From the NCBI RefSeq assembly GCF_036226405.1, contig NZ_CP108464.1, forward strand, positions 6,200,001-6,264,000: a DNA stretch of 64,000 nucleotides, written 5' to 3'. Shown in pieces: positions 48,325 to 51,984 of the stretch (position 1 is the stretch's first letter; the number at the start of each line of letters is the position of its first letter). A model generated the notes under the pieces. The model saw only the letters and a list, made by a program, of their open reading frames with translations. It was not told the DNA's origin and ran no database searches. Origin of the DNA: Streptomyces sp. NBC_01260 (lineage in GTDB: Bacteria > Actinomycetota > Actinomycetes > Streptomycetales > Streptomycetaceae). Both the position numbers and the translations under genes were made by a program.

Positions 48325-48915
48325 TCAGCCGAAGCTCCGCCCCATCTCGTCCAGGATCTCTTCGATCACCTCGGCCGGCTCCCGCGCCAGGTCCTCCTCG
48401 ATCCACACCCGCATCGCGATCCGCATCGACGAGAGGAACGCCGCCGCGAGGACCAGGGGGCGGACCGGGCCCGCCGAGTGGTCCTGGCGGGCGGTCACCG
48501 CTTCGGCCAAGTCGCGTTCCAGTGCTGCGTGGTTGGCGAGCTGGCGGGCGAGCAGGGAGGGGTGGCGCATGGCCAGTCGGGTGCGGACGGCCCATTCGCG
48601 TTCCGGAGGTGCCAGCCGTTCGGCGAACGGGGCCACCGCTGCCCGCAGCGCCGTCCAGGCGCTCTCCTCGGCGGGGCGTTCACGCACCGCGCGGACGAGG
48701 TCTCCTATCTGCTGCTCCTCGCCGTACAGGAGGGCGTCCTCCTTGCCGGTGAAGTAGTTGGAGAACGTTCTGCGGGAGATTCCGGCCGCGTCCGCCACGG
48801 CCTCCACCGTGACCTGGTCGAAGCCGTGCTCGACGGTCAGCCTCAGTGCCGCTTCGTGCACTGCCTGCCGGGTGGCTTCCTTCTTGCGTTCCCGCAGTCC
48901 CACTGAGCGCTCCAT
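48325..48915 (-). CDS. TetR family regulator, divergent from an MFS exporter
   Basis: 196 residues. The helix-turn-helix VTVEAVADAAGISRRTFSNYFTGKEDAL lies at about residues 35-62. The 30-residue C-terminus SMRIAMRVWIEEDLAREPAE is typical of the TetR_C_17-like ligand domain. ATG 48915 is preceded by the -10-like GATAAT at 7 nt, so it is probably leaderless. It should bind TGGGCAA-N2-TTGCCCA between itself and the exporter, repressing both. Confidence 0.88.
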   Translation of the reverse strand: MERSVGLRERKKEATRQAVHEAALRLTVEHGFDQVTVEAVADAAGISRRTFSNYFTGKEDALLYGEEQQIGDLVRAVRERPAEESAWTALRAAVAPFAERLAPPEREWAVRTRLAMRHPSLLARQLANHAALERDLAEAVTARQDHSAGPVRPLVLAAAFLSSMRIAMRVWIEEDLAREPAEVIEEILDEMGRSFG

Positions 48916-48953
48916 GGGCGCCATTATCCACCCGCCCGGTTATTATTGCGCAG

Positions 48954-48969
48954 TGGGCAAAATTGCCCA
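48954..48969. promoter_or_regulatory. TetR operator in the tetR-MFS divergent region
   Basis: TGGGCAAAATTGCCCA is a 7+2+7 perfect palindrome. It lies just upstream of a TATGGT -10-like element (48979-48984) for the MFS gene. On the other side it is about 39 nt from the TetR start. Confidence 0.75.
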
Positions 48970-49035
48970 TCGGGCATGTATGGTGAACCCTTGTTTTCTT
49001 CGTTCCCTTGTTCGAACACCTCCTGGAGGTTGCGC

Positions 49036-50574
49036 GTGAGCGCTCAAACGGCCGCGCCGACCGAGGTCGCGCCCATGGACCACCGCCATATCCTGCGCGC
49101 CCTGAGCGGTCTGCTCATCGTGCTGTTCGTGGCGATGACCAGCAGTACGGTGGTCTCCGTCGCGCTCCCGCAGATCATCGGGTCGCTCAACGGGACGCAG
49201 TCGCAGTACACCTGGGTCGTCACCGCGATGCTGCTCGCCTCCACGGCCTCCACGCCGATCTGGGGCAAGCTCGCCGACCTGTTCAGCAAGAAGCTGCTGC
49301 TCCAGATAGCCATCGGCATCTTCGTCGTCTCGTCGATCGCCTGCGGATTCGCCCAGTCCACCGAGCAGTTGATCGCCTTCCGTGCCCTCCAGGGCCTCGG
49401 GATGGGCGCGCTCCAGGTGCTCGTGCAGGTCATCATCGCGGCGATGATCAGCCCCAAGGAGCGCGGCCGCTACAACGGTTACCTCGGCGGCGTCATGGCC
49501 GTCGCCACCGTCGGCGGCCCGCTGCTGGGCGGTTTCATCACCGACACGTCGTGGCTCGGCTGGCGTTGGTGCTTCTTCATCGCCGTACCGTTCACGCTGC
49601 TCGCCCTCGTGATGCTCACCCGCACCCTGCACCTCACCGAGATCCGCCGCCCCGACACCAAGGTCGACTACCTGGGCGCCTCGCTCATCGCCGTCGGCGT
49701 CAGCGTGCTGCTCCTCTGGGTCACCTTCGTCGGCAACGACTTCGACTGGCTGTCCTGGCAGACGGCCGCCATGGTCGGTGCGAGCGTCGTGATCCTCGGC
49801 GGAGCCGTGGCCGTCGAGGCGCGGGTCAAGGAGCCCGTGGTGCCGCTCCATGTCGTACGCCGCCGGGACCCCGCCCTCGCCATCGCCGCGAGCCTCGCGG
49901 TCGGAATGGCGATGTTCGGCGGGGCGGTCTTCCTCGGCCAGTACTTCCAGATCGGACGCGGCTACTCGCCGACCGAGGCCGGACTGCTCACCATTCCGCT
50001 GATGTTCGGCGTGCTGGTCTCCTCGACCGTGGCCGGCCGGCTGGTGTCGAAGACCGGCAAGGTGAAGCCGTACATCATCACCGGCGTCGTCGTCCTCACC
50101 CTCGGATTCCTGGGGCTGTCCACCATCGACCACGAGACATCGCTCGTCCTCGTCTCGATCGGCATGCTCGCGGTCGGAGTCGGTGTCGGCATGTCGATGC
50201 AGAACCTCGTCCTCGTCCTCCAGAACACCGTCCCGCTCAGCGAACTCGGCGCGGCCAGCGGCGCGATCACCTTCTTCCGCTCGCTCGGCGGCACCATCGG
50301 CGTCTCGGTCCTGGGCGCGGTGCTCGCCAACCAGGTCGCCACGAAGATCACGGCCGGGCTGACGAAGCTCGGCGTCGACCCGGCGGCCTCGTCCTCCGGC
50401 GGCTCCACGCTGAACGTGGCCGCCATGCCGCCGGAGATCCGGGAGATCGTGCGGGCCGCGTACGGCGACGCGACGGGGCACATCTTCCTGATCTCGGCGG
50501 CCATTTCGGTCGTCGGCGTGATTGCCGCCCTGTTCCTCACCCCGACCAAGCTGCGCGACAGCGTGGACCTGTAG
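49036..50574 (+). CDS. MFS drug exporter, DHA2 family (14 helices)
   Basis: 512 residues with about 14 helices. TSSTVVSVALPQIIGSLNGTQSQYTWVVTAMLLASTAS and the loop GKLADLFSKKLLL are DHA2 (EmrB/QacA/LfrA-type) features. GTG 49036 has TGGAGG 7 nt upstream. The regulator and palindrome next to it suggest inducible efflux. It ends in a strong hairpin. The substrate is unknown. Confidence 0.92.
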   Translation: MSAQTAAPTEVAPMDHRHILRALSGLLIVLFVAMTSSTVVSVALPQIIGSLNGTQSQYTWVVTAMLLASTASTPIWGKLADLFSKKLLLQIAIGIFVVSSIACGFAQSTEQLIAFRALQGLGMGALQVLVQVIIAAMISPKERGRYNGYLGGVMAVATVGGPLLGGFITDTSWLGWRWCFFIAVPFTLLALVMLTRTLHLTEIRRPDTKVDYLGASLIAVGVSVLLLWVTFVGNDFDWLSWQTAAMVGASVVILGGAVAVEARVKEPVVPLHVVRRRDPALAIAASLAVGMAMFGGAVFLGQYFQIGRGYSPTEAGLLTIPLMFGVLVSSTVAGRLVSKTGKVKPYIITGVVVLTLGFLGLSTIDHETSLVLVSIGMLAVGVGVGMSMQNLVLVLQNTVPLSELGAASGAITFFRSLGGTIGVSVLGAVLANQVATKITAGLTKLGVDPAASSSGGSTLNVAAMPPEIREIVRAAYGDATGHIFLISAAISVVGVIAALFLTPTKLRDSVDL

Positions 50575-50624: not shown

Positions 50625-50699
50625 GTGGTCCGGTGGACTGCACCTGTCTGATCACTGACAATGGCAGCAGCAGGGACCGCAGTTGACGACGGGGGAGTC

Positions 50700-50927
50700 A
50701 TGACCGAGATCTTCGTGCTGCTCGGCGTGCTGTTGAGCGTGATCGTCTTCCTGATCGTGAAGCTGGTACTCAAGGAACGACGCCGCCCCACGGACAACTT
50801 CGACGGCCAGCAGATCGAGCGGGAGCACAGTGCGGAGGCGCGGCACGTCAGGGCGGCCAACACCTCGATCGCCGTCCACAACCGTTTCCTCGACGGAGGC
50901 AACGACTGGCGGCCCCGGAAGCGATGA
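50700..50927 (+). CDS. Small single-helix membrane protein
   Basis: 75 residues. One membrane helix (about residues 4-22, EIFVLLGVLLSVIVFLIVK-like) is followed by a basic RRR stop-transfer region and a charged cytoplasmic tail. No family recognised. GGGGGAG lies just before ATG 50700. Codon use fits a real gene. Its function is unknown. Confidence 0.65.
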   Translation: MTEIFVLLGVLLSVIVFLIVKLVLKERRRPTDNFDGQQIEREHSAEARHVRAANTSIAVHNRFLDGGNDWRPRKR

Positions 50928-50977: not shown

Positions 50978-51189
50978 TAGGGTGACGCTTCCCCGCAAGG
51001 GGCGTACCGAAGAAGAATGAGTCCCCGCACGGGGACCCAGCGAAGATCCCCGCACGGGGACGTACCGAAGGAGGTGGGACCCATTACCGCTGTATCAGGC
51101 TGGGTGCTCACCCCTCGTCAACGCGTGGCCGACCGGACATAACCGGCCCGCGGAGCACCCATCGGCATTTTCCCGAAAGGCTCCGCTTC
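50978..51189 (+). promoter_or_regulatory. Structured attenuator-like leader of the PrmC-related gene
   Basis: A -10-like TAGGGT (50978-50983) would start a leader of about 200 nt. First come three tandem hairpins: CCCC-GCAA-GGGG (50991), GTCCCC-GCAC-GGGGAC (51021) and TCCCC-GCAC-GGGGA (51047), each followed by an SD-like CGAAG element. Then comes the perfect AAGGAGGT (51068-51075). Hairpin A pairs 51101-51109 with 51153-51161 and adds inner stems 51122-51131/51144-51152. Hairpin B pairs GCGGAGC (51150-51156) with GCTCCGC (51180-51186), next to the prmC-like ATG. A and B share bases and exclude each other. Confidence 0.65.
51017..51142 (+). CDS. Possible leader peptide in the attenuator
   Basis: An open frame runs from ATG 51017 to TAA 51140. 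The same frame from ATT 51083 would start 7 nt after the perfect SD AAGGAGGT and give 19 residues ending GWVLTPRQRVADRT; GTG 51074 is another choice. Third-position GC is not high, so ordinary protein coding is unlikely. A regulatory peptide read by the ribosome is the more plausible role. The Trp-Val-Leu codons lie exactly on the first arm of hairpin A. Confidence 0.35.
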   Translation: MSPRTGTQRRSPHGDVPKEVGPITAVSGWVLTPRQRVADRT

Positions 51190-51984
51190 ATGCCGGTCCC
51201 GTTGTCACCGCTTGCCCTCTCCCGCCTCGTCACCACACTCCGCACCGCCGGCTGCGTATTCGCCGAGGACGAGGCGGAGCTGATCGCCTCCACCGCCGCC
51301 GGCCCCGCCGCGCTCACCGCCATGGTGGAGCGCCGCGTCGCCGGTCATCCCCTGGAACACGTCCTGGGCTGGGCCGAGTTCAGCGGGCTGCGGATCGCCG
51401 TGGACCCCGGGGTCTTCGTCCCACGCCGCCGCACCGAGTTCCTGATCCGGCAAGCCGTCGAACTGGCCTCGGGGCCGGCCGTCGTGGTCGACCTCTGCTG
51501 CGGTACCGGCGCGCTCGGCGCCGCGCTCGCCGCAGCCCTGGACGGGGTCGAACTCCACGCCTCCGACGTCGAACCCGCCGCCGTGCGCTGCGCCCGGCGC
51601 AACATCGGTGAGCTGGGCCGGGTCTACGAGGGCGACCTCTTCGCACCGCTTCCCGGCTCGCTGCGCGGGCGCGTGGACGTCCTGCTCGCCAACGTGCCGT
51701 ACGTACCGACCGGCGATGTCGCACTGCTCCCCGCGGAGGCGCGCGTGCATGAGCCGCTGGTGGCGCTCGACGGAGGCGGCGACGGACTCGACGTGATGCG
51801 GCGGGTGGCCGCCGAGGCGCCGCGGTGGCTGGCACCGGGTGGCAGCCTGCTGGTCGAGACGAGCGAACGGCAGGCGGCCCGTGCCGAGGAGACCGTGGGC
51901 GGCAGCGGGCTGATTCCGCGGGTGGTCTCCTCCGACGAGCTGTACGCCACTGTCGTGATCGGAACCATGCCCGCCGCCCCCTGA
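51190..51984 (+). CDS. PrmC-related protein (glutamine-N5) methyltransferase, unknown substrate
   Basis: 264 residues related to HemK/PrmC. The N-terminal helical domain (about 1-70) contains RRVAGHPLEHVLGWAEFSG. The SAM domain has PGVFVPRRRTEFLI and VVDLCCGTGALGAAL. The substrate motif reads NVPYVP instead of NPPY. This marks the actinobacterial PrmC-related family rather than true PrmC, which methylates release factors. ATG 51190 has GAAAGG at nine nt, but that site is overlapped by leader hairpin B, so expression is probably regulated at translation or attenuation. Confidence 0.88.
   Translation: MPVPLSPLALSRLVTTLRTAGCVFAEDEAELIASTAAGPAALTAMVERRVAGHPLEHVLGWAEFSGLRIAVDPGVFVPRRRTEFLIRQAVELASGPAVVVDLCCGTGALGAALAAALDGVELHASDVEPAAVRCARRNIGELGRVYEGDLFAPLPGSLRGRVDVLLANVPYVPTGDVALLPAEARVHEPLVALDGGGDGLDVMRRVAAEAPRWLAPGGSLLVETSERQAARAEETVGGSGLIPRVVSSDELYATVVIGTMPAAP

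Follow-up and report, generated by a model that had tools for sequence, protein, structure and literature searches.

The PrmC-related methyltransferase gene at positions 51190 to 51984 of the window (the whole 64,000-nt stretch of DNA analysed, part of the 9.28-Mb, three-contig genome of Streptomyces sp. NBC_01260) is preceded by a real, conserved leader switch. Its layout is most like that of erm-type translational attenuation, and it is apparently tuned to the start of its leader ORF. An earlier note on this DNA had proposed a pair of stems with a strand in common, of which one encloses the Shine-Dalgarno (SD) sequence of the methyltransferase, and this arrangement is borne out and is conserved over a sample of the genus. 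The leader switch probably turns genes on when ribosomes stick at the start of translation. In the methyltransferase branch the leader ORF has near-cognate start codons.

The protein encoded at 51190..51984 (+ strand) passes the curated cut-off of PrmC_rel_meth (TIGR03704; 406.9 bits versus 248.8) and does not reach that of PrmC (TIGR03534; 178.8 versus 199.1), which is passed by another gene of the same genome (241.7 bits). By sequence, its closest solved structures are HemK/PrmC proteins. PrmC itself has NPPY at the catalytic motif; here the motif is ANVPY, which is present in all 30 methyltransferase loci examined, the window's copy counted. Of 150 Streptomyces genomes searched at E 1e-40, 140 have the gene. 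Its SD sequence, GAAAGG (51175..51180, +), includes G106, A109, G110 and G111 (numbering of row L004, the window's copy), all of which are invariant in an alignment of 77 rows.

Upstream of this gene lies a short ORF with an SD of its own. The perfect AAGGAGGT that the earlier note had described is present at 51068..51075 (+), and the GGAGGTG within it is invariant or nearly so among the 77 rows. Beginning 7 nt behind this element is an ORF of 19 codons that runs from ATT to TAA (ITAVSGWVLTPRQRVADRT; 51083..51142, +). The earlier note was correct in that a leader ORF exists, and this ORF is conserved, but the note had placed its start at ATG 51017. The ORFs 51017-51142 and 51083-51142 are read in the same frame and have a common stop codon (51140-51142). 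The longer ORF contains AAGGAGGT, which is thus unable to feed it, and conservation sets in at the SD; the ATG was therefore rejected as the leader start.

From the 140 methyltransferase places, 138 upstream regions were fetched, and the leader is kept by a rule-based assignment in 114 of them, the window's own copy included; L018, L113 and L008 are among the 24 that failed the rule. A search at the DNA level found leader DNA in 94 of the 150 Streptomyces genomes. The start codon of the 114 leaders is ATT in 86 and ATC in 26, with a single ATA and a single CTG, and ATG, GTG and TTG do not occur. An infC-like start, that is AUU, AUC or AUA behind a strong SD, is hence found in 113 of 114. These near-cognate starts were not forced by the search, because an ATG at the position would have lost one of 40 points where the threshold was 22. 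One methyltransferase leader was also found outside Streptomyces, at locus L286, and it too starts with ATT.

The first codons of the ORF carry further information. Codon 3 specifies Ala in 108 of the 114 leaders, by way of GCT, GCA or GCC, and codon 4 specifies Val in 80 of 114, with several codons used; at the level of sequence comparison, such synonymous variation at codons 3-4 is a mark of translated codons, and translation would begin at AUU 51083. The reading frame is shifted before segment 2 of the structure described below in 11 of 107 leaders measured, and a peptide signal is therefore hardly to be expected outside the opening codons. At codon 7, 70 leaders have Arg, 19 Gly and 17 Trp, which does not agree with the previous suggestion that Trp-Val-Leu codons are sensed. 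The TTTT noted earlier at 51168-51171 is present, although its supposed terminator role is not upheld, for the tract is not conserved in the 77-row alignment as judged by eye. With Trp at codon 7 in 17 of 114, a shifted frame in 11 of 107 and no conserved U tract, an amino-acid attenuator of the trp type was rejected. Leader length ranges from 14 to 57 codons (19 codons in 56 of 114 and 20 codons in 24). Counted from the start codon's first base, segment 2 lies 19 nt away in 96 leaders, 18 nt in 10 and 20 nt in one of the 107 measured, seven of the 114 having been unmatched by the measuring pattern. This 18-20 nt from start codon to helix A is about one ribosome footprint.

The structural comparison used 77 leaders out of the first 86 of the 138 upstream regions (alignment A1); nine failed the rule, of which L018 and L113 look like shifted leaders and L008 is degenerate. 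Four segments can be defined in the window (all +). Segment 1 (51070..51083), which consists of the leader SD and ACCCA, pairs with parts of 51101-51116. Segment 2 (TGGGTGCTC; 51101..51109) is the 5′ strand of stem A and would be the anti-sequestering strand; its GGG lies 19 nt past the first base of the start codon. Segment 3 (GCGGAGCACCCA; 51150..51161) is the strand common to stem A (51153-51161) and stem B (51150-51156), and segment 4 (GCTCCGC; 51180..51186) is the 3′ strand of stem B. Between segments 2 and 3 is an inner hairpin, CCGG-ACATAA-CCGG (51133..51146), that carries the leader stop codon in its loop. The pairings that had been proposed for stem A (51101-51109 with 51153-51161; 9 bp, 100% complementary) and stem B (51150-51156 with 51180-51186; 7 bp) are both present as described.

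Covariation had been suggested as the check on these stems, and it gives a strong result for stem B, around the methyltransferase SD. RNAalifold, run unprompted on the 77 leaders, picked helix B (3:4) and helix 1:2 over the leader SD. Helix B is paired in 91.8% of cells, versus 25-57% (maximum 56.9%) in controls with slid strands, which gave at most 14 two-sided cells; the 42 two-sided cells of the true helix compare with 14.9 ± 6.0 in shuffled alignments, and none of 500 shuffles had as many. In helix A (2:3) the pairing is conserved (88.8% versus 42-62% slid), and both its percentage paired and its covariation score exceed 499 of 500 shuffles by a little, but its two-sided changes are not in excess (5 cells versus 4.3). 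Helix 1:2 is paired in 89.6% of cells (35-66% slid) and shows no two-sided changes, as expected because the SD fixes its letters. The inner hairpin of the relatives is 75.8% paired (21-45% slid), with 29 two-sided cells versus 16.7 ± 3.0 in shuffles. When 51070-51193 was shuffled 2000 times with dinucleotides preserved, three shuffles contained a 9-bp stem (loop of 20 nt or more) together with an overlapping 7-bp stem downstream. For 50978-51220 the folding energy (z -1.81; 11 of 200 shuffles equally good) is weak evidence alone; the fold is just mildly better than those of shuffled sequences, and the argument is therefore built on comparison. Parts of the leader outside the helices, CATTACCGCTG, are conserved beyond what pairing needs. 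Rfam returned no match at the gathering score, and the five sub-threshold hits (best E 0.14) were judged to be chance.

The 5′ part of the region is of a different nature. A putative -10 box, TAGGGT (50978..50983, +), has TANNNT at the corresponding place in 11 relatives (by eye), and transcription is expected to start near 50989-50991. Downstream are three CCCCGC-A-CGGGG hairpins with CGAAG tails (50990-51002, 51022-51034 and 51047-51059, +), spaced by 32 and 25 nt as the earlier note had it. Among the same 11 relatives, compared by eye, five (L005, L007, L010, L013 and L017) have a single copy, and in five no GC hairpin of the same form was noticed; L012, which is from another species, shows several copies of a 5′ hairpin upstream of its leader. 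The first and last copies in the window are placed, relative to the -10 box and the SD, like the single copy of the relatives. The three hairpins thus look like lineage-specific duplicates of one 5′ hairpin, an ordinary feature. They had been counted as part of the leader and are indeed present in the window, but we rejected them as a general part of the switch, since they are missing or single in most of the 11 relatives. A search of the genome itself with up to three mismatches returned two of the three copies and one outside place that does not form a hairpin. Their period of 25-32 nt also led us, by eye, to reject CRISPR-like repeats.

The DNA search also matched copies of the leader away from the methyltransferase. 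The genome under study has four copies at E below 0.001, namely that of the window and three before alpha/beta hydrolases (C1:8362604, 8663902 and 8896918, or L278, L276 and L277); the frame of L277 changes after codon 3 (MNAYRCGC...). Leader patterns were then run over 392 Streptomyces genomes and over named species (at least 118 stretches), and the leader was also found in Nocardia, Rhodococcus, Nonomuraea, Amycolatopsis, Micromonospora, Kribbella, Actinomadura, Pseudonocardia and others. Classified by loose motifs, 118 loci among the matches listed comprise 82 hydrolase, 22 monooxygenase and 4 GNAT loci, 2 that are unclear and 8 that were cut by the locus end and left unclassed; no erm gene was noticed among the genes examined behind the leader. 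One hydrolase matches the esterase 4ao6. The monooxygenase at L161, the single example scanned, is a rifampin monooxygenase both by NF033145 (831 bits versus a cut-off of 800) and by its match to 5vqb (E 8.7e-210). An IF-1-like ORF follows the GNAT gene under the leader at L064, L065 and L209, that is, at three of the 11 GNAT loci looked at, not all of which extend far enough to reveal one.

Before these other genes the leader peptide is mostly M/V-N-A-V-S-x-W-V-L-P, with an ATG or GTG start. All 89 copies that were retained (12 of 101 loci were left out for want of a recognised SD or for lying at the locus end) start with ATG or GTG, codons that the gathering patterns demanded or favoured, and Ala occupies codon 3 in 82 of the 89. 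In 47 of these rows, chosen to cut redundancy (alignment A2), 2:3 is 99.5% paired and 3:4 is 95.5% paired, with no covariation because the helices are almost invariant; the target SD lies just outside the 3:4 helix and abuts it. An AT-rich element with TTGG precedes 64 of 87 other-gene leaders versus 1 of 77 methyltransferase leaders, and we take it to resemble WhiB7/WblC promoters. A hydrolase subclass found with a covariance model (L312-L320) has an ATC start in all nine loci fetched, and its leader is shorter, such as INAVTGRGSLSRMA. At L166, L189, L207, L212 and L216 the rifampin-monooxygenase-type proteins have an N-terminal stretch that by eye resembles the hydrolase N terminus, as though one gene had replaced another behind the leader.

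We propose that the leader acts as an erm-like, four-segment translational attenuator that opens when ribosomes are held at its codons 1-2, and we rate the chance of this as marginally better than even. In the idle state, segments 1:2 and 3:4 would be paired, hiding both the leader SD and the methyltransferase SD. During normal translation of the leader, the ribosome would pass segment 2, 3:4 would close and the methyltransferase would be off. If a ribosome stopped with its P site on codon 1 or 2, segment 1 would be covered and segment 2 would stay intact; segment 2 could then pair with segment 3 and free segment 4 along with the methyltransferase SD. The footprint of a ribosome extends some 15 nt past the first base of its P-site codon, so that with a spacing of 18-20 nt a ribosome at codon 1-2 would spare segment 2. 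The AUU or AUC start would make initiation slow and the leader sensitive to initiation conditions, and the inducers would probably be drugs that arrest translation at an early step. The parts of the attenuator reading that we infer are translation from AUU, the holding of the ribosome, the inducer and the direction of the switch.

Folding models in which leader nucleotides are masked as by a ribosome, for example the first 29 nt for the start position, support the switch only modestly. With the first 29 nt masked, the methyltransferase SD region is cheaper to open than with a ribosome at codon 9 in 67 of 77 leaders (11.9 versus 19.2 kcal/mol for the window). In equilibrium folding, placing a ribosome at the start changes 2:3 from 0.20 to 0.34 and 3:4 from 0.23 to 0.18. 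On average the SD does not become more likely to be unpaired (0.33 when idle, 0.30 with a ribosome at the start, 0.32 with one at codon 9). For the other classes the start position has the advantage over codon 9 in 25 of 42 and 13 of 47 leaders only, and their 3:4 pairing is 0.91-0.94 wherever the ribosome stands ahead of the stop, so that those classes may work differently.

The same models are equally compatible with the idea that termination, or its coupling to the next gene, is what the leader senses. A ribosome paused on the leader's stop codon, 7 nt ahead of segment 3, would open 3:4 and expose the methyltransferase SD, and slow termination would then raise a release-factor-type methyltransferase. 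That the target gene is PrmC-related fits this scheme, as does the leader stop codon of the window, which falls within the loop of the inner hairpin. When a ribosome is modelled at the stop, 3:4 drops to 0.05 for the methyltransferase leaders and to 0.61 for the ATG/GTG class, and the opening cost is below that of the idle state in all three sets. The cost with the ribosome at the stop averages 11.4 versus 11.0 kcal/mol at the start (window 10.0 versus 11.9), and this opening of 3:4 has no role in the start-hold attenuator as we state it. However, the scheme leaves the conservation of stem A and the fixed spacing from start to segment 2 without a function, the leader varies in length from 14 to 57 codons, and genes unrelated to termination also carry it. 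On balance, we regard sensing at the stop codon as unlikely.

The start codon itself suggests a sensor of initiation fidelity, in which AUU or AUC would tie leader translation to IF3 and IF1 in the manner of infC, so that the switch would report how initiation is faring and not the presence of a drug. Near-cognate starts in 114 of 114 methyltransferase leaders and ATC in nine of nine loci of the hydrolase subclass L312-L320 speak for such a sensor, as do the IF-1-like ORFs after the GNAT gene (three of 11 loci, some short). Against this stand the ATG or GTG starts of 89 of 89 other-gene copies, even though the patterns demanded or favoured those codons, and we consider a pure fidelity sensor distinctly improbable. 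Least credible to us is a structured RNA that binds a protein or ligand, with the leader ORF incidental. The conservation of CATTACCGCTG beyond pairing needs would be explained by it, but the retained SD and start-codon position, the class-specific start codons and the synonymous changes at codons 3 and 4 would not, and there is no Rfam match.

Among described systems, the start-hold attenuator that we favour is closest to the erm/cat type, in which a leader ORF with its own SD precedes four mutually pairing segments, with the target SD in the last helix. All of these elements are shared: the short ORF and its SD are evident here from sequence and conservation, and in the methyltransferase class one of the mutually exclusive helices hides the target SD. 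In erm/cat leaders the ribosome is held deeper in the ORF, whereas the spacing here fits codons 1-2; in addition, the start here is AUU or AUC, and one leader family serves at least four unrelated gene types. In infC, an AUU start underlies the autoregulation of IF3; there the start belongs to IF3, and here it belongs to a leader peptide. A conserved near-cognate start behind a strong SD is common to both (infC is mentioned in PMC13009471), and according to that paper Staphylococcus aureus makes use of conserved AUU and AUA start codons that follow extended SDs.

In Streptomyces, other uORFs have ribosomes stopped at their start codons by lincosamides, streptogramin A and pleuromutilins, according to PMC12421871. 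The are5sc and tiaA attenuators of S. coelicolor described there likewise use uORFs and a drug-held start-codon ribosome, but they are transcriptional, with a terminator and anti-terminator, whereas the leader here has no conserved U-rich terminator; their peptides (MLV, MRS and MVGDDDISG) also differ from ours. The wblC/whiB7 uORF, mentioned in PMC12421871, is another case of ribosome-mediated attenuation in the same stress network, with wblC itself as the target, unlike here. The rifamycin-associated element (RAE) resembles the leader in residing in the 5′ UTR of actinomycete rifampin monooxygenase genes; as described in PMC10719064 and PMC12802891, it is a 19-bp palindrome and possibly a transcription-factor site. 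Going by that description, no such palindrome was noticed by eye in 10 rox leaders. The claim of the earlier note that no element with this layout had been described stands within the searches made, with the reservation that the layout works like erm-type attenuators; we found no description of the leader in the literature searched, a weak absence given that most subscription papers were outside reach.

The rifampin monooxygenase, alpha/beta hydrolase and GNAT genes behind the leader are likely to serve antibiotic defence or detoxification. A broader and quite tentative reading, which we think has a rather low probability as a whole, is that this is an actinomycete-wide family of leader switches reporting initiation-trapped ribosomes, common to the PrmC-like methyltransferase, rifampin monooxygenases, alpha/beta hydrolases and GNAT/IF-1 genes, with one branch fixed on AUU/AUC that would also read initiation fidelity. 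The methyltransferase would then be a translation-stress factor acting on the ribosome or its factors. If true, a leader common to resistance-type genes would link a PrmC-like methyltransferase to the antibiotic-stress response of Streptomyces, and the leaders would show AUU/AUC starts naturally conserved in regulatory peptides. The leader could also serve as a tag, marking the genes behind it as those under one early-translation sensor in actinomycetes.

Other genes of the window lie near the leader. A DHA2-type drug efflux MFS gene (48946-50574, +) is located just upstream, with Tcr3/OtrB as its best matches, far under their cut-offs, and it adjoins a gene for a TetR/MftR-like regulator (48325-48924, - strand). 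Immediately 5′ of the leader is a small ORF (50661-50927, +) that has a hydrophobic N-terminal part and no Pfam or NCBIfam match. An end resembling that of this small ORF (GGNDYRPRRR) is apparently also encoded 5′ of the L017 leader, as judged by eye.
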